From: Thermodesulfobacteriota bacterium
GTDB taxonomy: Bacteria > Desulfobacterota > Desulfobacteria > Desulfobacterales > JAUWMJ01
Direction of reading: 5' to 3'
NCBI GenBank assembly: GCA_034189135.1
Contig: JAXHVO010000019.1
Span: 1-44,214, forward strand
DNA: 44,214 nucleotides
Shown here: in pieces, positions 17,956-39,586 of the stretch
How positions within the stretch are numbered: position 1 is the stretch's first letter
Layout: each line of letters opens with the position of its first letter
Program-made: the position numbers and the translations under genes
Notes under the pieces: generated by a model
The model's database searches: none
Told to the model about the DNA's origin: nothing
What the model saw: the letters and a program-made list of their open reading frames with translations, nothing else

Positions 17956-18017
17956 AAAAATGCAAATCGACCCTGATGGAGTATTATTATAATATGAGGA
18001 TACGGGCCGATTTGCAT
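17956..18017 (-). terminator. Rho-independent terminator of small RNA copy A
   Basis: On the minus strand ATGCAAATCGGCCC (18017-18004) pairs with GGGTCGATTTGCAT (17973-17960) through a 30-nt AU-rich loop, followed by TTTTTGT. All pairs are Watson-Crick except one G-U. The same stem is seen at 37041-37081. Confidence 0.8.
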
Positions 18018-18071
18018 CTTGTGAGGTAGTAAAACAAACGATGGAGGTAAATGCCAAGTTAAACCCCTCGA
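17956..18071 (-). ncRNA. Candidate sigma-54-dependent small RNA, copy A
   Basis: Predicted transcript of about 116 nt, placed by the sigma-54 site upstream and a rho-independent terminator at the end. Its 5' part contains a 25-nt block (18065 to 18041) identical to copy B, including UUGGCAUUUACCUCCAU with the anti-Shine-Dalgarno core ACCUCC. A second ACCUCA occurs about 20 nt later, and CUCC-type motifs recur in the terminator loop. The terminator stem is 14 bp with one G-U pair. No open reading frame with a start site is present on this strand. Unusual pairing motifs in accessible positions suggest a regulator that blocks ribosome binding (inference). Which mRNAs it binds is not known. Confidence 0.72.
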
Positions 18072-18189: not shown

Positions 18190-18205
18190 TGGCATAAATA
18201 TTGCT
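18190..18205 (+). promoter_or_regulatory. Sigma-54 promoter of the ferredoxin/cytochrome b operon
   Basis: TGGCAT-AAATA-TTGCT with exact GG-N10-GC spacing, start predicted near 18216. It points to the operon at 18506 and is divergent from the small-RNA promoter 92 bases away, so one activator site could serve both. Confidence 0.8.
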
Positions 18206-18505: not shown

Positions 18506-19462
18506 ATGAAAACCAAATTATCCAGAAGATCTTTTCTAAAGGGAACCATGGCCACGGCATGCACCCTTGCTGCAGCGGGCATCCCGGCAAGTGCTGCAGG
18601 AGCTGAAGACAAACAGCAGCTCGCCACCCTTCTCGATATTCGTAAATGTATCGGATGCGAAGCCTGTGTCGAGGCCTGTAAAGAGGTAAATGAAAAGAAA
18701 TTTCCTGACCCGAAAAAACCGTTTCCTAAAATGTATCCAGATCGCGTACCGGTAATGGACTGGTCGGACAAACAGTATGTGACAGACCGTCTGACACCTT
18801 ACAACTGGCTTTTTATTCAGCATGCCAATGTTAAAATCAACGGGGAAGAGACCGAACTTACGATTCCCAGGCGCTGCATGCACTGCGTGAACCCGCCCTG
18901 TGTTAAGCTGTGCCCGTGGGGATCGGCCAGGCTGCTGGAAAACGGCATATCGAGGATCGATCCTGAACTGTGTCTGGGTGGTGCCAAATGCAAAGCCGTC
19001 TGTCCCTGGGATATTCCTGAACGTCAGACCGGTGTGGGGTTGTATCTTGATATGCTTCCGTCACTGGCGGGAAACGGTGTGATGTACAAATGCGACCGGT
19101 GTTATAACAGAATTGCGGACGGAGAGTTGCCCGCCTGTATAGAAGCCTGCCCCGAAGATGTTCAGACCATCGGGCCAAGGGACGAAATCATTAAACAGGC
19201 TCATAAACTGGCCAAAGAGATCGGCGGATATATCTATGGTGAAAAAGAAAACGGTGGAACCAATACGATATACGTGTCTCCGGTTCCGTTCCAGGAACTG
19301 AACCAGGCCATTGAAAAAGGAAAGGGAAAGCCCCATCTGCAGCCGGTAAAGGATAGCATGGCCGATTCAAACAACCTTGCCGCGGCCATGATTGTCGCAC
19401 CGATTGCCGGACTTGCCGCCGCTGCAGGTAAATTCTACCAAATGACCAAAACCGGTAAGTAA
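18506..19462 (+). CDS. Tat-exported ferredoxin subunit (HybA/FdnH-like) of a membrane redox complex
   Basis: 318 aa. The N-terminus has a twin-arginine signal (SRRSFLKGT) followed by an Ala-rich hydrophobic stretch. It has four [4Fe-4S] Cys groups in the FdnH/HybA/PhsB pattern: CIGCEACVEAC, CMHCVNPPCVKLC, CKAVC and CDRCYNRI with CIEACPEDV. A C-terminal hydrophobic segment (AAAMIVAPIAGLAAAAG) is a likely membrane anchor. It would carry electrons between a periplasmic enzyme and the cytochrome b encoded next. No molybdopterin catalytic subunit lies nearby, so the partner is encoded elsewhere or the pair works as a membrane electron relay. GGAG lies 6 bases before the ATG. Expression is probably sigma-54-dependent. 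Confidence 0.88.
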   Translation: MKTKLSRRSFLKGTMATACTLAAAGIPASAAGAEDKQQLATLLDIRKCIGCEACVEACKEVNEKKFPDPKKPFPKMYPDRVPVMDWSDKQYVTDRLTPYNWLFIQHANVKINGEETELTIPRRCMHCVNPPCVKLCPWGSARLLENGISRIDPELCLGGAKCKAVCPWDIPERQTGVGLYLDMLPSLAGNGVMYKCDRCYNRIADGELPACIEACPEDVQTIGPRDEIIKQAHKLAKEIGGYIYGEKENGGTNTIYVSPVPFQELNQAIEKGKGKPHLQPVKDSMADSNNLAAAMIVAPIAGLAAAAGKFYQMTKTGK

Positions 19463-19489: not shown

Positions 19490-19972
19490 ATGAACCTTGA
19501 TATAACTGCTTCAAAATTCAACCAAAATAAGATCATCCGCTACTTATACCGGGCAACCATTTTTTTTCTCGTTCTGACCGGTTTTGGGAACATGCCGATT
19601 TTCAAGCGCTATTATATTGCGGATATCCCGGGACTGGGATGGCTGGCTGAGTATTACGTCACCCTTTATATCCATTATCTGTTTGCCATACTGCTGATCG
19701 GAATCATTTCGTATATTATCATCGAATATCTGGTCCTCAGGCGAAAAAAAATAAAAATTACGCTGTCCGGTTACATCCGGGGATCAGTGGTTGCCGGGCT
19801 CCTCATCACCGGGATCCTTCTGGTGATAAGAAACCATGAGGTTTCCGGGTTTGCTCCCGGTTTTATCATTTTTTTATACCTGTGCCATCTCACCCTGGTG
19901 ATGGTGCTTCTAATGACCGGGTTGGTCAGTGTTATTTTTAACAAGAAATGGTATTTTGAGGTCAGGCATTAG
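19490..19972 (+). CDS. Four-helix cytochrome b subunit (FdnI/HybB-like) of the same complex
   Basis: 160 aa with four predicted membrane helices and candidate heme-ligand histidines in helices 2 and 4 (YIHYLFA, YLCHLTL) plus RNHEVSG in a loop. This is the layout of gamma subunits of formate dehydrogenase N and related enzymes that reduce quinone. It starts 27 bases after the ferredoxin gene with GGAGG before its ATG, so they form a two-gene operon. Its 3' end overlaps the converging sigma-54 activator gene by 11 bases. The precise complex is not identifiable. Confidence 0.8.
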   Translation: MNLDITASKFNQNKIIRYLYRATIFFLVLTGFGNMPIFKRYYIADIPGLGWLAEYYVTLYIHYLFAILLIGIISYIIIEYLVLRRKKIKITLSGYIRGSVVAGLLITGILLVIRNHEVSGFAPGFIIFLYLCHLTLVMVLLMTGLVSVIFNKKWYFEVRH

Positions 19973-21374
19973 ATGGGTTTTTAAGGGGAATTTCCCATTT
20001 TTTCATATACTTCCATATTGCAGTTCTGCTCAGCCCTGCTCTTCTTCCGACCTCGGCCTTGTTCCAATCGCACTCCTCCAAGAGGGTAAGCAGAGCCTGT
20101 TTTGACAGCTTCTTGCGTGGAACAGAGTTAGAACTTAATCTTTCGGGTATGGCCGCAGTTGAGACCGAATATTGGCTTTGACGGATTTCCACCGGCAAAT
20201 CAAACGGGTTGATTCGTTCTCCGGTGCAAAGCACAAATGCATGTTCAATCGCATTCTCAATCTCCCGGACGTTTCCCGGCCAGGGATAATCCATAAGGAT
20301 ACGCAATGCTCCCGGAGTAGCCCCCTGGATTTTTTTACCGGTTTTACGGTTTTGCGCCTTAATGAAATGACTGATTAAAAGTGGTAGGTCTTCTTTTCGT
20401 TCTCGAACTGGCGGAAGATAAATGGGAAATACCTTGATTCTATAGTACAGGTCCTCCCGGAAATATCCTTGTCGGATGCGGCTATAAAGGTCCTGGTGGG
20501 TTGCGGTGATCACTCTGATATCGACTTTACGCTTTCGCGATTCACCCACGCGTTCGATTTCCCGTTGCTGCAAAACACGAAGAAGCTTTACCTGGATAAA
20601 GGGACTGAGTTCGCCGATTTCATCAAGAAAGATGGTTCCTCCTTGAGCTTCTTCAAAGCGCCCCAAGCGATCTCGCATGGCACCGGTATAAGCACCTTTT
20701 ACATGCCCGAACAACTCGCTTTCCAGTAAGGATTCCGAAAGGGCTGAACAATTAACCGTAATAAGGGGCTTGTCCTTTCGTTCGCTGTTATAATGAATCG
20801 CACCGGCCACAAGCTCTTTGCCGGTCCCGCTTTCTCCATGTACCAGTATAGTGGCATCGCTTGATGCAGCGGCCTTGATGGCCGTAAAAACCTTGCGCAT
20901 CGCCTGGCTTTTACCGATGATGTTGTCCAAACGGTGGATTTCACCCAGCCTAAGTACGGCTTCTTCTGCTTTTTTTCGCGCCTTGTTCAATTCAGTAAGA
21001 TCGGTAACCGTTTCGACCACCCCGATGATACGACCGCCTTCATCCCTGACCGCACTGGCATTCTTGATCACCGGAACATCGTGTCCATCTTTATGCTGCA
21101 CATGGCAATCTTTGGCCTCGGAAAATCCGTGTTCCATAATGCCGCAATTCTCGATGCCGGCAGGACATTCCTTACCAAAGCAGCGGCTGCAACGGAGAAG
21201 CTGACAGGTTTTCCCTATGGCATCCTTTGCCTTATACCCGCTGATGCGCTCCATGGATCTATTCCATGACGATATCCGTCCGTCGGCATCCATGGTAAAT
21301 ACCCCGTCAGCCATGGAGTCTATAATTTGATTCACGAATCTAAAATTCCAGATTTCATGGGTTTTATCTTGCAT
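19962..21374 (-). CDS. Sigma-54-dependent activator 1, PAS-AAA+-HTH
   Basis: 470 aa. An N-terminal PAS domain (about 10-125) carries many cysteines (57, 62, 65, 70, 77 and a later DCHV), consistent with a redox or metal-cluster sensor. The AAA+ domain follows with Walker A GESGTGKE, the sigma-54-contacting loop as GAYTGA, and Walker B FLDEIGELS. The C-terminal Fis-type HTH reads WNKAEVGRRAGLSRTAIWKY. The longest frame begins at GTG 21434; ATG 21374 is chosen because the PAS domain starts soon after. Convergent with the ferredoxin/cytochrome pair, it is the obvious candidate to activate it. The long inverted repeat at 21445-21486 lies just upstream and may be its autoregulatory site. Confidence 0.92.
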   Translation of the reverse strand: MQDKTHEIWNFRFVNQIIDSMADGVFTMDADGRISSWNRSMERISGYKAKDAIGKTCQLLRCSRCFGKECPAGIENCGIMEHGFSEAKDCHVQHKDGHDVPVIKNASAVRDEGGRIIGVVETVTDLTELNKARKKAEEAVLRLGEIHRLDNIIGKSQAMRKVFTAIKAAASSDATILVHGESGTGKELVAGAIHYNSERKDKPLITVNCSALSESLLESELFGHVKGAYTGAMRDRLGRFEEAQGGTIFLDEIGELSPFIQVKLLRVLQQREIERVGESRKRKVDIRVITATHQDLYSRIRQGYFREDLYYRIKVFPIYLPPVRERKEDLPLLISHFIKAQNRKTGKKIQGATPGALRILMDYPWPGNVREIENAIEHAFVLCTGERINPFDLPVEIRQSQYSVSTAAIPERLSSNSVPRKKLSKQALLTLLEECDWNKAEVGRRAGLSRTAIWKYMKKWEIPLKNPSNA

Positions 21375-21444
21375 GGATATTGTCTGCCTCGAATGATTTA
21401 ATAGTGAGTCATTTTTTGCAAGCGTTGGACTCACCAGCGTTACC

Positions 21445-28538: not shown

Positions 28539-29894
28539 ATGGACCAAATCCAGCATTCCATAGAACAGAATTGTCATATCATATTTGACAGTATCGAAGA
28601 GGGTGTCTTTACGGTTGACTTGGACTGGCGTATTACTTCGTTTAACCGGGCAGCGGAAAAAATTACCGGGGTATCGAGGGAAAAGGCCATCGGACGGCCA
28701 TGTTTAGAGATTTTTTGTGCCAATGTATGCAAAACAGATTGTGTTCTTCGCAAGGTATTGAATACCAACAAACCGATTGTAAATATGCCGGTTTACATCA
28801 TCCGTTCTGATGCAAAGCGTATCCCCATCAGTGTTAATGCTACCATACTAAGAGATGACAGAGGCCATATCGTTGGCGGTGTTGAGACCTTCAGGGATTT
28901 GTCTAATTTGAGTAAGTTACAAAAGTCCTTTTACAAGCATTACTCTTTTGGAAATATTGTCAGCAGGAATAAAAAGATGCTGGAGATTTTTTCAACCCTG
29001 CTTTTAATTTCTGAAAGCGATTGCACCGTGTTAATAGAAGGGGAAACCGGCACAGGAAAAGAATTGTTGGCCCGGGCGGTGCATAATAACAGCCCGCAAA
29101 AAAATGGTCCTTTTATACCGGTCAACTGCGGAGCGTTACCCAACACCCTGATAGAATCAGAACTTTTTGGATACAAGGCAGGGGCCTTTACCGATGCCAA
29201 AACAGACAAGCCGGGTCGTTTTGAACTTGCGCAAAACGGGACGATTTTCTTAGATGAGATCGGAGATATTCCCCGGTCCTTGCAAAATCGTCTGTTGCGA
29301 GTTCTGGAAGAAAATGCTTATGAGCCTTTAGGTTCCGTAAAACCTGCCAAGACCAACGCCAGAATTGTAGCCGCAACCAATCGAGAACTGGAAAAATTGG
29401 TTGAAAAAAACAAATTCAGGGAAGATCTTTATTTTCGCATTAATGTGATGAAACTGACCCTGCCTGAGCTTGCGAAACGAAAGGAGGATATTCCTCTTTT
29501 AGTGGATCATTTTATCCAGCGTTTCAATAGTGATAAAAAGAAGAATATTTTAGGTGTCTCCCATGAAGCAATGGCTGCATTAGTACTTTATGACTGGCCC
29601 GGCAACATCCGCGAGCTTGAAAATGCCATTGAACACGCTTTTGTACTTTGCAGAGAAGAGCTTATTGGCCTGCATCACTTGCCGGATGAGCTTTTATCAA
29701 AGATTAATGCAACCTTTGCTGCAACAGGGACCACCCTGAGAGAAATTGAAAAAAACGCGATTTTCCAGACGCTTCAGAGAAATAACTGGAAAAGAGCGGT
29801 CACCGCCGATGAACTCGGAATCAACAAAAACACCCTCCGCCGCAAAATCATACGCTACGGAATTGAAATGGAAAAAGAGAGGTATAAGGAATGA
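28539..29894 (+). CDS. Sigma-54-dependent activator 2, PAS-AAA+-HTH
   Basis: 451 aa. The N-terminal PAS domain (about 12-125) contains the cysteine pattern C55-x4-C60-x3-C64-x3-C68. The AAA+ domain has Walker A GETGTGKE, GAFTDA at the sigma-54-contacting loop (instead of GAFTGA), Walker B FLDEIGD and R-finger region REDLYFRINV. The C-terminal HTH is WKRAVTADELGINKNTLRRK. GAGG is five bases before the ATG. The next gene (YkgJ-like) starts in an ATGA overlap, so the two are translationally coupled. It probably activates a nearby sigma-54 promoter; the partner is not identifiable. It resembles activator 3 (37223) more than activator 1. Confidence 0.92.
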   Translation: MDQIQHSIEQNCHIIFDSIEEGVFTVDLDWRITSFNRAAEKITGVSREKAIGRPCLEIFCANVCKTDCVLRKVLNTNKPIVNMPVYIIRSDAKRIPISVNATILRDDRGHIVGGVETFRDLSNLSKLQKSFYKHYSFGNIVSRNKKMLEIFSTLLLISESDCTVLIEGETGTGKELLARAVHNNSPQKNGPFIPVNCGALPNTLIESELFGYKAGAFTDAKTDKPGRFELAQNGTIFLDEIGDIPRSLQNRLLRVLEENAYEPLGSVKPAKTNARIVAATNRELEKLVEKNKFREDLYFRINVMKLTLPELAKRKEDIPLLVDHFIQRFNSDKKKNILGVSHEAMAALVLYDWPGNIRELENAIEHAFVLCREELIGLHHLPDELLSKINATFAATGTTLREIEKNAIFQTLQRNNWKRAVTADELGINKNTLRRKIIRYGIEMEKERYKE

Positions 29895-34011: not shown

Positions 34012-35964
34012 TTACATGCCTACCACCTCTTTAATGTCCACCAGGTGCATTAATGGTCTTGTCAGCATGGTAAACTCATCTTTTTCCGCATCGTAAACAG
34101 AGTTGACAAACACCTTTCCCCATTTATCTTCATCCATCTTTTTGAAATCCGAACGGTAGTAGTACCCGGGCCATCTGGTTTCCTCGCGGAACAGTTTATG
34201 TCGGGTATGGGCTTCGGCAATCTGAACCCGGTGAATATTTTCCCAGCACCGCATCAGTTCATGGAGATTCCGGGCAGCAAGCTTGGAAAGATCCTCTTTG
34301 AGGAGTTTCAGCAGATCCAGAGCAATGTTCAGTGTAATCGCGCTGCAGGTATACTGAGTACCCCAGCCGGCTACATATTCATCCATGATCTTGTTGAGCC
34401 GGAAGATGGCCATTTTAGGAGTAATATAATTTGGATTGACCTCTTCCACCGGCAGATCATATTTTCGGGTAGCCGTACCCAGGGTGGTGTAAGCGGTATG
34501 CTCTTCATAGTGCTTAAGCGGGAGCACAAGCTGTTCTTTGAGCTTATCCACCTCTGCGGAATCAAATTCAGGCATTTCAGGGTTATCCACACAGTACTTT
34601 ATCGCTGCTTTTGCTGCGATCCGCCCCTCGGTAAAAGAACCCGAAGAGAACTTGTGGCTTGACAGTCCGACCCCGTCACCGGCTGCAAACAGACCTTTAA
34701 CCGTAGTCATACGGTTATACCCCCAGAAATACTCATTCTTGGATTCTTCGGTCTGGATATCTTCAGGGCCACTGCACCATGCACCGGATGCTCCGGAGTG
34801 GGAGCCGATAAAATAAGGCTCGGATGGCTGGATTTCGGAGGGTCCCTCCTCGGGAAAGACATCTTTTGCCGCCCACAGAACCGCCTGGCTGATGGTCATG
34901 TCGAGAAAATCCTCCCATGCCTCGGCCTCAAGCTTTTTTATTTCCTTTTTATACGCTTTTTCATCAGGCGCTTCATCCGCAATCTTTTTAATGGCCTTAT
35001 CCGTATGAATTAAAATGGGGCCATCACCTTTCTGGTACATTTCAATCATCATCAGGTGGTTCCTGAGACAGGTGGGGATCGGTTTCACTTCCCCATAGGG
35101 TGGCCAGTTGTGAAGTTCGCCCCCTTCAGCCAAACCTTCAGCCATGTAGTTGAAACCGTTGGCAGAAGTCGCTGCCGCCTTAAACAGCAAGAACCATGCC
35201 CCAACCGGACCATATGCATCCTTGTATCTTCCCGGTATAAAAACCACTTCCTGAGAAGTCATTTCGGCGCCGGCAGTGGTGGTCAGGTAGGAGGTTGATC
35301 CTGCGTTCCAGGGTGGATACCAAGCTCTGCCCAAGCCTTCTCCGGTTGACCGTGGTTTGAAAACGTGAACGGCACCGCCTGCACAGGCAATGCAGGCCTT
35401 AAATTTAAATACATAGATTTCGGGATCTCTCACGCTAAACCCGATGGCGCCTGCCACTTTAGTTTTATCGTTTTTGTCGAGTAAAAGTCGAACCACAAAT
35501 ACGCGTTCGACAATATTGTCAATACCAACCGCATTCTTCCCGGCTTCCGCAACGATGGCCTTATAAGATTCGCCGTTGATCATAAGTTGCCACCGGCCTT
35601 CATGAACATAATTGCCTTCTCCATCTTTCCAGATGGGAAGTCCGTACCCTTCAAACATGTGGACTGTTCCATTGACGTGTCTGGAAATATCCATGACCAG
35701 GTCGTCCCGGCAAAGGCCCATCAGGTCTTGCCTGACATAGCTGAGGTAATCGGGGGGAGAATTTTCACCCTGATATTGATTAATGGCTGAAAGTCCCATT
35801 CCCACAGCACCGCTTCGTTCCATAGCCGCTTTGTCCACCACGGTGACTTTCAAATTATTTTCTTTGGCCCAATGTGCACCTTCCACGCATGCACCGCATC
35901 CTGCCATTCCTGGACCGATAATCAATAAATCAGTCGTCACCTCGATCGTTTTGAATTCTTGCAT
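34012..35964 (-). CDS. aprA: Adenylylsulfate (APS) reductase alpha subunit
   Basis: 650 aa, the flavin subunit that reduces APS to sulfite and AMP in sulfate respiration. The FAD motif is GPGMAGCGACVEGA near residue 17. The substrate-pocket residues known from AprA are retained: Trp219 in WYPPWNAGS, Arg246 in IPGRYKDAYG and His389 in IGSHSG, with DGVGLSSHKFSSGS later. The sequence differs from standard AprA in several conserved blocks (for example ASGAWCSGP, and LFAAGDGVG in place of LWTCADGVG), so it may be a paralogue. AAGGAGGTG lies 9 bases before the ATG. It follows aprB by 15 bases. The sat and qmo genes are not adjacent. Confidence 0.93.
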   Translation of the reverse strand: MQEFKTIEVTTDLLIIGPGMAGCGACVEGAHWAKENNLKVTVVDKAAMERSGAVGMGLSAINQYQGENSPPDYLSYVRQDLMGLCRDDLVMDISRHVNGTVHMFEGYGLPIWKDGEGNYVHEGRWQLMINGESYKAIVAEAGKNAVGIDNIVERVFVVRLLLDKNDKTKVAGAIGFSVRDPEIYVFKFKACIACAGGAVHVFKPRSTGEGLGRAWYPPWNAGSTSYLTTTAGAEMTSQEVVFIPGRYKDAYGPVGAWFLLFKAAATSANGFNYMAEGLAEGGELHNWPPYGEVKPIPTCLRNHLMMIEMYQKGDGPILIHTDKAIKKIADEAPDEKAYKKEIKKLEAEAWEDFLDMTISQAVLWAAKDVFPEEGPSEIQPSEPYFIGSHSGASGAWCSGPEDIQTEESKNEYFWGYNRMTTVKGLFAAGDGVGLSSHKFSSGSFTEGRIAAKAAIKYCVDNPEMPEFDSAEVDKLKEQLVLPLKHYEEHTAYTTLGTATRKYDLPVEEVNPNYITPKMAIFRLNKIMDEYVAGWGTQYTCSAITLNIALDLLKLLKEDLSKLAARNLHELMRCWENIHRVQIAEAHTRHKLFREETRWPGYYYRSDFKKMDEDKWGKVFVNSVYDAEKDEFTMLTRPLMHLVDIKEVVGM

Positions 35965-35979
35965 AACGCGTCACCTCCT

Positions 35980-36423
35980 TTAATCTCCAAGTGTCCAGAG
36001 TTTATCCTCTTTCAATGATGCCGGTTCCGTGAACAGGAGCTGATCATCCAAAGTTCCCGGTCCTATGCCAAATCCGCCGTCCGGTTTAGCTTCCCCTTCC
36101 GGTGTGGTTCTGATGGGAAACTTGAACCGTTTAATCGTACCTCCGCGGAATTTGACGGTCCACATGATATCTTCTGAACCCCTCATGGGGACAACGCTTG
36201 CACCCAGTGGAGTAAAATCAGCATAACCCCTTACCTCAACCGCCTGGGTGGGGCATATTTTTACACAATTATAACATTCCCAGCACATATCCGGCTCGGA
36301 ATTATACGCTTTCATTCTATCTGCATCCAGCACCATTAGATCGTTAGGGCAAATGTACATGCATGCAGTTTTGTCCCCTCCCTTACATCCATCGCATTTT
36401 TCATCAATGACAAAACTAGGCAT
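35980..36423 (-). CDS. aprB: Adenylylsulfate (APS) reductase beta subunit
   Basis: 147 aa with the AprB ferredoxin core. Cluster cysteines are in CDGCKGGDKTACMYIC (10, 13, 21, 25) and CWECYNCVKIC (47, 50, 53, 57). It feeds electrons from the cytoplasm-facing membrane complex into AprA. The middle RGSEDIMWTVKFRGGT and RFKFPIRTT blocks are typical; the C-terminal tail is somewhat shorter than in common AprB. ATG 36423 is chosen over an upstream frame extension because the protein starts MPSFVIDEKCDGC and GGAGG precedes it. The likely promoter is the sigma-54 site at 36592-36607, giving a leader of about 158 nt. Confidence 0.93.
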   Translation of the reverse strand: MPSFVIDEKCDGCKGGDKTACMYICPNDLMVLDADRMKAYNSEPDMCWECYNCVKICPTQAVEVRGYADFTPLGASVVPMRGSEDIMWTVKFRGGTIKRFKFPIRTTPEGEAKPDGGFGIGPGTLDDQLLFTEPASLKEDKLWTLGD

Positions 36424-36485
36424 TGTGACCTCCTTTTTCTTCAATGATTATTTTCCATCTGTGTTTAAATTCAGCCGGTATGAAT

Positions 36486-36971: not shown

Positions 36972-36987
36972 TGGCATGATAATTGCT
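36972..36987 (+). promoter_or_regulatory. Sigma-54 promoter of small RNA copy B
   Basis: TGGCAT-GATAA-TTGCT with exact GG-N10-GC spacing; start predicted near 36998. Confidence 0.82.
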
Positions 36988-36997
36988 GAAGTCTTTT

Positions 36998-37090
36998 TGG
37001 ATAGAGGTTTAACTTGGCATTTACCTCCATATTGTTGGCAGCAAATCGGCCCTCTGGGATAGGCCCTCCGGGTCGATTTGCATTTTTATT
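36998..37090 (+). ncRNA. Candidate sigma-54-dependent small RNA, copy B
   Basis: Predicted transcript of about 93 nt. The block 37006-37030 is identical over 25 nt to copy A and contains the ACCUCC anti-SD core. A shorter spacer leads to the same terminator stem. CUCC occurs again in the terminator loop (CCCUCCGGG). It lies directly upstream of the activator 3 gene, with about 130 nt between terminator and start codon, so it could be an independent RNA or the leading part of a partly read-through activator transcript. Confidence 0.72.
37041..37090 (+). terminator. Rho-independent terminator of small RNA copy B
   Basis: GCAAATCGGCCC (37041-37052) pairs with GGGTCGATTTGC (37070-37081), 12 pairs with one G-U, loop 17 nt, followed by ATTTTTATTT. 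It shares stem and wobble position with copy A while loop sequences differ. Confidence 0.82.
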
Positions 37091-37222: not shown

Positions 37223-38611
37223 ATGAACAGGCAAATGAAGAACGGCAGCCATAGCCAAATATCACCCCACATAACGGAAACCATACTGGAAAGCATTTCC
37301 GATGGGGTTTTTACCATAGATCGTAACTGGCGGATTACCTCTTTTAACCGTGCCGCCGAAAAGATTACGGGTATCTTCCGTCAGGAAGCCATCGGCAAAC
37401 AGTGCTGCGAAGTTTTTCGTTCAAACATGTGTGAGACGGACTGTGCTTTGCGCCGCACCATGAAACTGGGCAAGCCTTTTGTGGACACTTCCACCTATAT
37501 CGTTAATGGTGAAAAACGGCGCATTCCGGTAAGCGTATGTACTTCCCTGCTAAAAGATGAAAATGGAACGGTAATAGGCGGTGTTGAAACCTTCCGTGAT
37601 ATGAGCACGGTAGAGGAGTTGCGCAAGAGGCTTGACGTAAAATATCAGCAGGGAGATATGATCAGCCGCAGTCCTTTGATGCACAAAATATTTGCCATTC
37701 TTCCCCAGGTGGCCCAAAGCGACTCATCGGTATTGATTCAGGGAGAAACAGGAACCGGCAAAGAGCTTTTGGCCCGAGCAATTCATGAACAAAGCCCGAG
37801 ATGTAAAAAGCCGTTTATTGCAATCAATTGCGGTGCCCTGCCGGACACCTTGCTGGAATCTGAGCTTTTCGGGTACAAGGCAGGGGCGTTTACCAATGCA
37901 AAAAAGGACAAGCCGGGACATTTTGCCCTTGCCCAGGGCGGCACCATTCTTTTGGATGAAATCGGTGATGTCAGCAGCGCATTTCAGGTGCGGCTCTTGC
38001 GCGTGTTGCAGGAACGCAGTTTTCTCCCTCTTGGAGGGACACAAGCGGTTAAGGCCGATGTCCGTGTCATCGCCGCATCCAATAAAAACCTTGAAAATCT
38101 GGTAAAAAAGGAAGTCTTCCGACAGGATCTTTATTATAGAATAAACGTGGTACGAATAGATCTTCCGCCCCTTCGCCACCGCAAGGAAGACATTCCGCTT
38201 TTGACCGAGCATTTTATCAACCGGCTCAATCGGTTGCGAGGTAAAAAAATAACCGGCTTCAACCAGGAAGCGCTTTCGCTTCTGATGTCACATTCTTACC
38301 CCGGCAATATTCGGGAACTGGAAAATATTATTGAACATGCCTTTGTGCTTTGCCTGGAGGGACAAATCAAACCGGATGCACTACCCGATTTTCTTATACC
38401 CACCACTCCCAATCCAAAAGAGGGCGATACGATCAACTCAACCTTGAAACAGGTTGAAGTCCAGGTGATCATAGACACACTCAAACGTAATAAATACAAT
38501 CGTCTGGCAACCGCTGATGAGCTTGGTATGCATAAAAGCACCCTATTTAGAAAGATTAAAGCTCTGGGTATCTATCTTCCGAAAATGAACGGTCGCAGAA
38601 AATCCGATTAA
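37223..38611 (+). CDS. Sigma-54-dependent activator 3, PAS-AAA+-HTH
   Basis: 462 aa. The PAS domain contains C61, C62, C70 and C74, the same C-x8-C-x3-C spacing as activator 2, so probably a redox-responsive or metal-binding sensor. The AAA+ domain has GETGTGKE, GAFTNA at the sigma-54-contacting loop (instead of GAFTGA), and LLDEIGD. The C-terminal HTH is YNRLATADELGMHKSTLFRK. Gene order (activator, NifX/ORP-like protein, MinD-like ATPases) matches the ORP region of Desulfovibrio, where the sigma-54 activator DVU2106 controls the orp operons. It is therefore the likely regulator of the 38773 promoter. ATG with AAGG upstream. Confidence 0.93.
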   Translation: MNRQMKNGSHSQISPHITETILESISDGVFTIDRNWRITSFNRAAEKITGIFRQEAIGKQCCEVFRSNMCETDCALRRTMKLGKPFVDTSTYIVNGEKRRIPVSVCTSLLKDENGTVIGGVETFRDMSTVEELRKRLDVKYQQGDMISRSPLMHKIFAILPQVAQSDSSVLIQGETGTGKELLARAIHEQSPRCKKPFIAINCGALPDTLLESELFGYKAGAFTNAKKDKPGHFALAQGGTILLDEIGDVSSAFQVRLLRVLQERSFLPLGGTQAVKADVRVIAASNKNLENLVKKEVFRQDLYYRINVVRIDLPPLRHRKEDIPLLTEHFINRLNRLRGKKITGFNQEALSLLMSHSYPGNIRELENIIEHAFVLCLEGQIKPDALPDFLIPTTPNPKEGDTINSTLKQVEVQVIIDTLKRNKYNRLATADELGMHKSTLFRKIKALGIYLPKMNGRRKSD

Positions 38612-39202: not shown

Positions 39203-39229
39203 CATCAACCCGTAAGAAAGGAGGCGACT

Positions 39230-39586
39230 ATGCCAGGAGGAGATAGGACAGGACCATCAGGGATGGGTTCCATGACAGGACGAGGAGCCGGTTATTGTGC
39301 CGGATATTCAGCACCGGGCTCGGTCAATCCGACTCTCGGTAGAAGTTTCGGCGCAGGCTTTGGACGGGGCCTCGGTCTTGGCTTCCGGGGAGGACGGGGC
39401 GGAAGATGGGGCGTGCCCTACGCCGGGTATGGTTACGGTGCTCCGTATGCCCCTGGCTATAGTTATGCTCCGACCCTGGAGCAGGAAACGAGTGCGCTTA
39501 GAAATCAGGCTCAATATTTTGAAGATAGTCTTAAAGAGATCAAGAAACGGTTAAAAGAGCTGGAAGTTAAAAAATCCACACCATAA
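39230..39586 (+). CDS. DUF5320-type Gly/Arg/Tyr-rich protein
   Basis: 118 aa. It begins MPGGDRTGPSGMGSMTGRG and is rich in Gly, Arg, Tyr and Ala to about residue 80, then ends in a helical coiled coil (EQETSALRNQAQYFEDSLKE). This is the DUF5320 layout, usually next to NifX-like and MinD-like genes in anaerobes. AAAGGAGGCG precedes the ATG. It follows the NifX-like gene by 27 bases. A low-complexity, partly disordered adaptor is likely; no enzyme motif is present. Confidence 0.83.
   Translation: MPGGDRTGPSGMGSMTGRGAGYCAGYSAPGSVNPTLGRSFGAGFGRGLGLGFRGGRGGRWGVPYAGYGYGAPYAPGYSYAPTLEQETSALRNQAQYFEDSLKEIKKRLKELEVKKSTP

Follow-up and report, generated by a model that had tools for sequence, protein, structure and literature searches.

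The two intergenic units W1 and W2, which lie in the window (the whole 44,214-nt stretch of DNA analysed here), probably belong to a family of sigma-54-driven RNAs that would act in trans to block translation of aprB, the gene for the beta subunit of APS reductase. Judged by comparison of sequences, we give this reading a probability of roughly three in four. The comparison shows the family, its promoter, its hairpin, the complementarity to aprB and the rank of that complementarity. The features to which the text refers are the following, with coordinates in the window and strand in brackets.

36972-36987 (+): W1 sigma-54 (-24/-12) promoter, TGGCAT-GATAA-TTGCT
36998-37087 (+): W1 predicted small RNA, putative start about 12 nt past the -12 GC
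37006-37030 (+): W1 conserved core, GGTTTAACTTGGCATTTACCTCCAT, antisense to a Shine-Dalgarno (SD) sequence plus AUGCCAAG translation start
37041-37087 (+): W1 intrinsic terminator, stem 37041-37052/37070-37081 (GCAAATCGGCCC/GGGTCGATTTGC), T tract 37083-37087
18097-18082 (-): W2 sigma-54 promoter, TGGCAT-TAAAA-TTGCT
17956-18070 (-): W2 predicted small RNA, putative start
18065-18041 (-): W2 conserved core, the same 25 nt as in W1
17956-18015 (-): W2 intrinsic terminator, stem 18015-18004/17973-17962, identical to the W1 stem, then a T tract
37223-38611 (+): PAS / sigma-54 activator gene, downstream of W1
35983-36423 (-): aprB-like gene (APS reductase beta), adjoining W1
36412-36433 (-): translation start of this second aprB, GGAGGU-CACA-AUGCCUAGUUUU, less strongly predicted as a target (the core places it third of 301)
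39220-39237 (+): translation start of a DUF5320 gene, GGAGGC-n-AUGCCAGG, rank 6 of 301
contig C85 of the same genome: main aprB

The initial annotation had described two intergenic units with a common order of sigma-54 promoter, 25-nt block and terminator, and direct reading of the sequence bears this out; each terminator stem contains one G-U pair. An exact repeat of 25 nt is expected about 2e-6 times by chance in 44 kb (arithmetic), and in the whole genome 23 nt of the block, with up to three mismatches allowed, were confined to the W1 and W2 sites. The motif TTTACCTCC was found at these two sites only (0.37 expected; two occurrences were reached in 5 of 100 shuffles). TGGCA-N6-TTGC is present three times in the window, against 0.72 expected and a count reached by 3 of 100 shuffles; two of the three are the W1 and W2 promoters. 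Folding gave z values of -2.4 for W1 and -5.1 for W2. When eight copies were folded singly, four had z values of -2.4 or below and the other four, with terminators cut short, ranged from -0.95 to 0.04. W1 does not contain the 3' strand of a 5' hairpin that is present in most relatives. The CUCC motifs reported in the terminator loops turned out to be inconstant across the family copies. Another part of the W1 terminator loop, GGGAUAGG at 37056-37063, recurs in many copies and exceeds what a terminator needs; it is absent from W2 and from G081. Next to W2, a sigma-54-like site, TGGCATAAATATTGC at 18190-18204 (+), points in the divergent direction, upstream of a 4Fe-4S gene at 18506. Between W2 and this gene TCTTAAGTT (around CTTAAG) occurs twice, at about 18240 and 18290, some 50 nt apart. 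These paired copies are candidate activator binding sites that both divergent sigma-54 promoters would share; CTTAAG is absent from the 412 nt upstream of W1.

The element had been called a two-copy family, which is correct for its own genome but too narrow for the family as a whole. Homologues in relatives, which the annotation had proposed to search for, were found with a covariance model (R1) that was built from eight copies and spans the RNA only, with the promoter excluded. It matched 35 of 389 genomes of the window's order, in 22 of the 150 genera sampled and with up to five copies per genome. W1 itself scored an E value of 3.5e-17, being, like W2, one of the eight sequences used to build the model. 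G213 has five copies; G143 and G101 carry tandem pairs spaced by 0.2-0.3 kb. Two other families of the order yielded related copies in pattern searches, and G081, from the same genus, also has the element. The R1 search gave 54 rows, of which two were not fetched (one antisense, in G000, and one partial, in G117); the counts below are based on 50 copies, i.e. the remaining 52 rows minus two variants with another 5' domain (G007, 2720; G182, 11027). As a separate observation, a second type of RNA (L031:2720-2820 and L030:8028-8128) is also preceded by a sigma-54 site and has the same kind of terminator; its 5' hairpin differs (UUGGCAU..AUGCCAA, then UCUCCUCC), and it lies about 0.3 kb past a standard copy.

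A second model (R2) matched 50 of the 389 genomes of the order. It added copies with core and promoter in G093, G126 (two), G180, G301, G069 and G267, and matches in G073 and G141 have a promoter and a deviating core. The core is present in G299, G337 and G339, where the 60 nt upstream revealed no sigma-54 site. Several weak extra matches were rejected as chance or as antisense to the palindromic terminator, and matches without the core (G288 twice, G286, G177, G212) were judged by eye to be chance. Among 395 genomes of the phylum R2 matched eight, two of which are members of the order; among the remaining six the core is confined to G652. That genome also has a weaker sigma-54 site and a terminator and is the one convincing member outside the order, the matches in G413, G452, G608, G720 and G733 being chance by eye. 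Five of eight matches to an 18-nt block (Haliea, Alistipes, Arthrobacter, Lutibacter, MAG26) showed neither promoter nor terminator by eye and were also taken as chance, and a match in G006 with two mismatches (L021) was dropped because by eye it resembles coding sequence. A mobile element was considered and rejected; viral contigs did not contain the exact 18-nt block. The earlier statement that no described family has this layout agrees with an Rfam scan of the window and ten further loci, in which no family reached its gathering threshold; the single match, to a Plasmodium family, had an E value of 4.8.

The layout of the copies supports a stand-alone small RNA with a predicted sigma-54 promoter and terminator of its own. 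A sigma-54 promoter (GG-N10-GC; score of at least 7.5) precedes 43 of the 50 copies, compared with a mean of 0.42 and a maximum of 3 in single-base shuffles of the upstream sequence, a region that lies outside the covariance model. In seven of the 50 copies no sigma-54 promoter could be recognised, and the usual terminator is missing from at least one, G166. In most members the RNA, whose predicted start is near the 5' strand of the hairpin, consists of a 5' hairpin with a variable, covarying stem and a loop containing CUUGGCAU-n-ACCUCC, followed by the intrinsic terminator. Within the hairpin, CUUGGCA and ACCUCC are separated by a stretch of variable length. Its helices differ in sequence at the same place (GAGAUGU/ACAUCUC, GCAAGGG/CCCUUGC, GGUAAUUA/UAAUUACC, GGAGGCU/AGCCUCC), and the native strands outpaired all 200 strand swaps (score 14.7, versus a mean of 13.5 and a maximum of 14.4). 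For the terminator, 10 of 12 pairs were changed on both sides in 52 rows, with 98.5% of the cells paired, and none of 500 shuffles reached any of five covariation measures; this alignment was fitted to the stem itself, includes the two variant copies and excludes six antisense rows. The terminator sequence is replaced in the more distant G126, G301 and G267 and missing in G166, and the hairpin stem is variable, so the loop core is the most constant part of the RNA.

The genes around the copies recur in part. A sigma-54 activator gene is the immediate neighbour of 17 of the 50 copies (within two genes in 21); 14 of these 17 copies lie just downstream of the activator on the same strand. A DUF1638 gene adjoins eight copies. 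In 37 of the 50 an activator, DUF1638, OYE-like reductase, RACo/AcsV-like or thioredoxin gene lies within two genes, counts that include W1 and W2 although the query proteins originate from the window. The window itself contains three sigma-54 activator genes in its 44 kb (19962-21434, 28539-29894 and 37223-38611), located among AcsV-like, MTHFR, thioredoxin, OYE-like, DUF1638 and NifX-like genes.

Two other readings were considered. One is a cis-acting leader or attenuator of the downstream gene, as W1 and W2 are each followed, after 120-140 nt, by a gene on the same strand (for a sigma-54 activator and a thioredoxin reductase). However, six of the 50 copies abut a convergent ORF of at least 250 aa that overlaps the copy or lies within 45 nt of its end (ORFs called mechanically), so a same-strand downstream gene is not shared by all members; these convergent neighbours led us to reject a cis-attenuator. 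The downstream genes also vary among the copies, and the gene to which the core is antisense lies at another place. A cis-acting role is therefore highly improbable. The other reading is that the conserved sequence is translated, either as a leader peptide (SD-TTG GCA TTT ACC TCC) or from an ORF on the opposite strand. An SD-like GAGG does precede the TTG by a few nucleotides in W1, W2 and others. Against this, the distance from TTGG to CCTCC varies from 3 to 18 and equals 0, 2 and 1 modulo 3 in 31, 12 and 7 copies, respectively. Spacers are thus not multiples of three in 19 of the 50 copies, which leaves the conservation unexplained by a reading frame on either strand. The leader-peptide frame MAFTS[IV] was rejected on these spacer lengths, which also contradict conservation that tracks an opposite-strand frame, a pattern the annotation had told its readers to look for. 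We see hardly any chance for a translated element.

The constant part of the stand-alone RNA points to its predicted main target. Read as its reverse complement, the core spells a translation start, GGAGGU-n-AUGCCAAGU, and CUUGGCAU together with ACCUCC is antisense to the full start GGAGGU-n-AUGCCAAG, that of aprB. The anti-SD pairing described initially is therefore only half of the site: the ACCUCC half faces the SD, whereas CUUGGCAU pairs with the AUG and codons 2-3. In the window's own genome the pattern GGAGGTN{1,14}GCCAAG occurs eight times, W1 and W2 included, which is not above chance since a reversed control pattern gives nine. Of the six remaining matches two are plausible gene starts, namely the main aprB (GGAGGTATAATAAATGCCAAGTT, MPSFVIAEKCDGCKGG) and a gene labelled DUF5320-like from its by-eye similarity to the DUF5320 N-terminus; among the six, only aprB extends the match to ATGCCAAGTT.

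Target prediction against starts with their SD regions, as the initial annotation had proposed, placed aprB at rank 1 with the genome's own core in four genomes from four families (301 starts in G000, 306 in G029, 275 in G213 and 306 in G126). The z values were -3.6 to -6.3 in G000, G029, G213 (two core versions) and G126; the ranked starts are samples rather than whole genomes, with aprB starts placed by motif and the others approximate. When the part before ACCUCC was shuffled, aprB kept rank 1 in 1, 5, 0, 0 and 0 of 60 trials (same order). When the core was replaced by the longer 5' domains of W1 and W2, aprB ranked 2 and 3 of 301. In G029 the core and the aprB start are complementary at 24 of 26 nt without a gap, the next best among 681,084 positions on both strands being 17 of 26; the corresponding values are 23 of 26 in G296 and 22 of 26 in G330.

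For a comparison across genomes, AprB was searched in 80 genomes, of which 66 matched, and aprB starts were read at 76 of 78 places (none found in G337 and G201); second or paralogue-type copies (labels x and b; G000w, G103, G004, G005) were left out. AprB went undetected by the protein search in 12 of 46 genomes that carry a copy, each less than 90% complete; one of them, G104, nonetheless shows an aprB start. Immediately 5' of CUUGGC, 20 genomes have an A, each combined with AGU as aprB codon 3, and seven have a G, with AGC in three and AGU (a wobble) in four. The combination of A with AGC did not occur in the 29 genomes compared, two of which are without the standard core. The independent changes behind this match are few; of the three AGC genomes, two are in one genus. 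G079 has CAAGGC instead of CUUGGC, yet its aprB reads AUGCCAAG. The aprB start AUGCCAAGU was present in 26 of 29 genomes with a copy versus 21 of 31 without a detected copy (Fisher p 0.06), and pairing within the own genome was barely better than with the aprB of other positives (energy -25.1 versus -24.6).

These data also bear on the possibility that the RNA is a general one, whose ACCUCC loop sequesters many GGAGGU ribosome-binding sites with no special role for aprB. ACCUCC is identical to the anti-SD sequence of 16S rRNA, and many genes with a strong SD score well. One is gene 21751, which had been named as an example of such a site; it scores -18.1 kcal/mol and ranks 13 of 301 with the core. 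A general anti-SD function does not account for the conservation of CUUGGCAU, which is kept at a varying distance from ACCUCC, for the loss of rank 1 that shuffling the part before ACCUCC mostly costs aprB, or for the antisense match of 24 of 26 in G029; we regard it as unlikely. It is also conceivable that the RNA pairs with aprB and activates or stabilises its mRNA. We found nothing in favour of this, and the predicted pairing spans the SD, the AUG and the next codons, an arrangement that normally blocks initiation, which makes activation very unlikely.

Two further starts in the window resemble the site. The second aprB (35983-36423) reads AUGCCUAGU, with a mismatch inside the pairing. It belongs to a second aprBA-like pair (34012-36423, -), whose AprB is distinct from the main AprB and shares 91-97% identity with copies found in several further genomes. 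DUF5320 and DUF5320-like genes (39220-39237; L119:1501) have starts of the form GGAGG-n-AUGCCA(A/G)G, and starts like these are seen again in other genomes; the genes are possible secondary targets.

Repression of aprB in trans could thus proceed as follows. The RNA gene would be turned on by a sigma-54 activator of the PAS type, frequently the product of a neighbouring gene. The RNA would then pair with the aprB(A) mRNA, ACCUCC with the SD and AACUUGGCAU with AUG CCA AGU U (Met-Pro-Ser-Phe) of aprB, and ribosome binding would be blocked, so that less APS reductase is made; the block may perhaps also affect aprA behind aprB. Transcription of the RNA, its pairing in the cell, the repression, and which activator acts under which signal are what we infer from the comparison. 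A repressor of this kind, sigma-54-driven and acting in trans, had been proposed for a set of mRNAs; the comparison favours the kind, but with aprB as the main predicted target. The family also has, as far as can be predicted from sequence, what characterises trans-acting small RNAs, namely a promoter and terminator of its own and conserved complementarity to a target encoded elsewhere. Hfq (PF17209) gave no match in the own genome, which is 95.5% complete; the same search matched 5 of 14 control genomes, including E. coli. A lack of Hfq there would fit the G+C-rich, loop-presented seed.

C-rich loops that pair with SD sequences are known from RNAIII/RsaE and RepG. The RNA described here is similar in that a C-rich loop faces the SD; it differs in that the predicted pairing extends over the start and following codons of one gene and in its sigma-54 promoter (compared via Rfam only). 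Rfam also includes a model for Qrr, the hosts of which (Vibrio) belong to another phylum. According to PMC8043402, the Qrr small RNAs are sigma-54-driven, number five in V. harveyi with one beside the activator gene luxO, and act on the translation of target mRNAs. The family resembles Qrr in its sigma-54 promoter (43 of 50 copies), its several copies and the position of some of them beside a sigma-54 activator gene (17 of 50). It differs in its predicted metabolic target and in that Qrr acts through Hfq, which was not detected in the own genome, the only one searched. Sequence comparison by the Rfam scan gave no match; the likeness to Qrr is one of design and does not indicate membership. In Desulfovibrio vulgaris, Dv_sRNA2 is a target of the response regulator DVU0679, its gene lies downstream of DVU0679 and its function is unknown, according to PMC3333781. 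It shares with the present family the layout, in a sulfate reducer, of a small RNA gene downstream of a regulator gene, which controls it in D. vulgaris and may do so here. This comparison is by description; outside the order, R2 found only G652 to be convincing among the 395 genomes of the phylum. Open-licence papers, a set that leaves out most subscription papers and all preprints, yielded no description of a small RNA directed at APS reductase in sulfate reducers; in PMC11124144, on RNAs predicted in Oleidesulfovibrio, 'apr' and 'adenylylsulfate' do not occur in the text, supplements aside.

A wider proposal, which we make tentatively and with the odds somewhat against it, is an RNA control of sulfate respiration in a large part of the order. 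PAS-sensing sigma-54 activators, linked to DUF1638, OYE-like, thioredoxin and corrinoid-activation genes, would make a multi-copy RNA, folded and antisense to the aprB start, that shuts off APS reductase at a switch of energy metabolism without Hfq, and the second aprB, with its mismatched seed (CCU/CCG), would escape. To our knowledge, the regulation of the central enzymes of sulfate respiration in sulfate reducers is poorly understood. If true, a globally important process would be subject to a direct and testable post-transcriptional switch in the form of a conserved antisense RNA to the aprB start, and this RNA would exemplify a Qrr-like mode of action in a sigma-54-driven, multi-copy RNA that apparently does without Hfq. 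The small RNA, previously unnamed, often multi-copy and apparently present in many sulfate-breathing bacteria, suggests through its complementarity to the aprB start an RNA switch that lowers the production of APS reductase.
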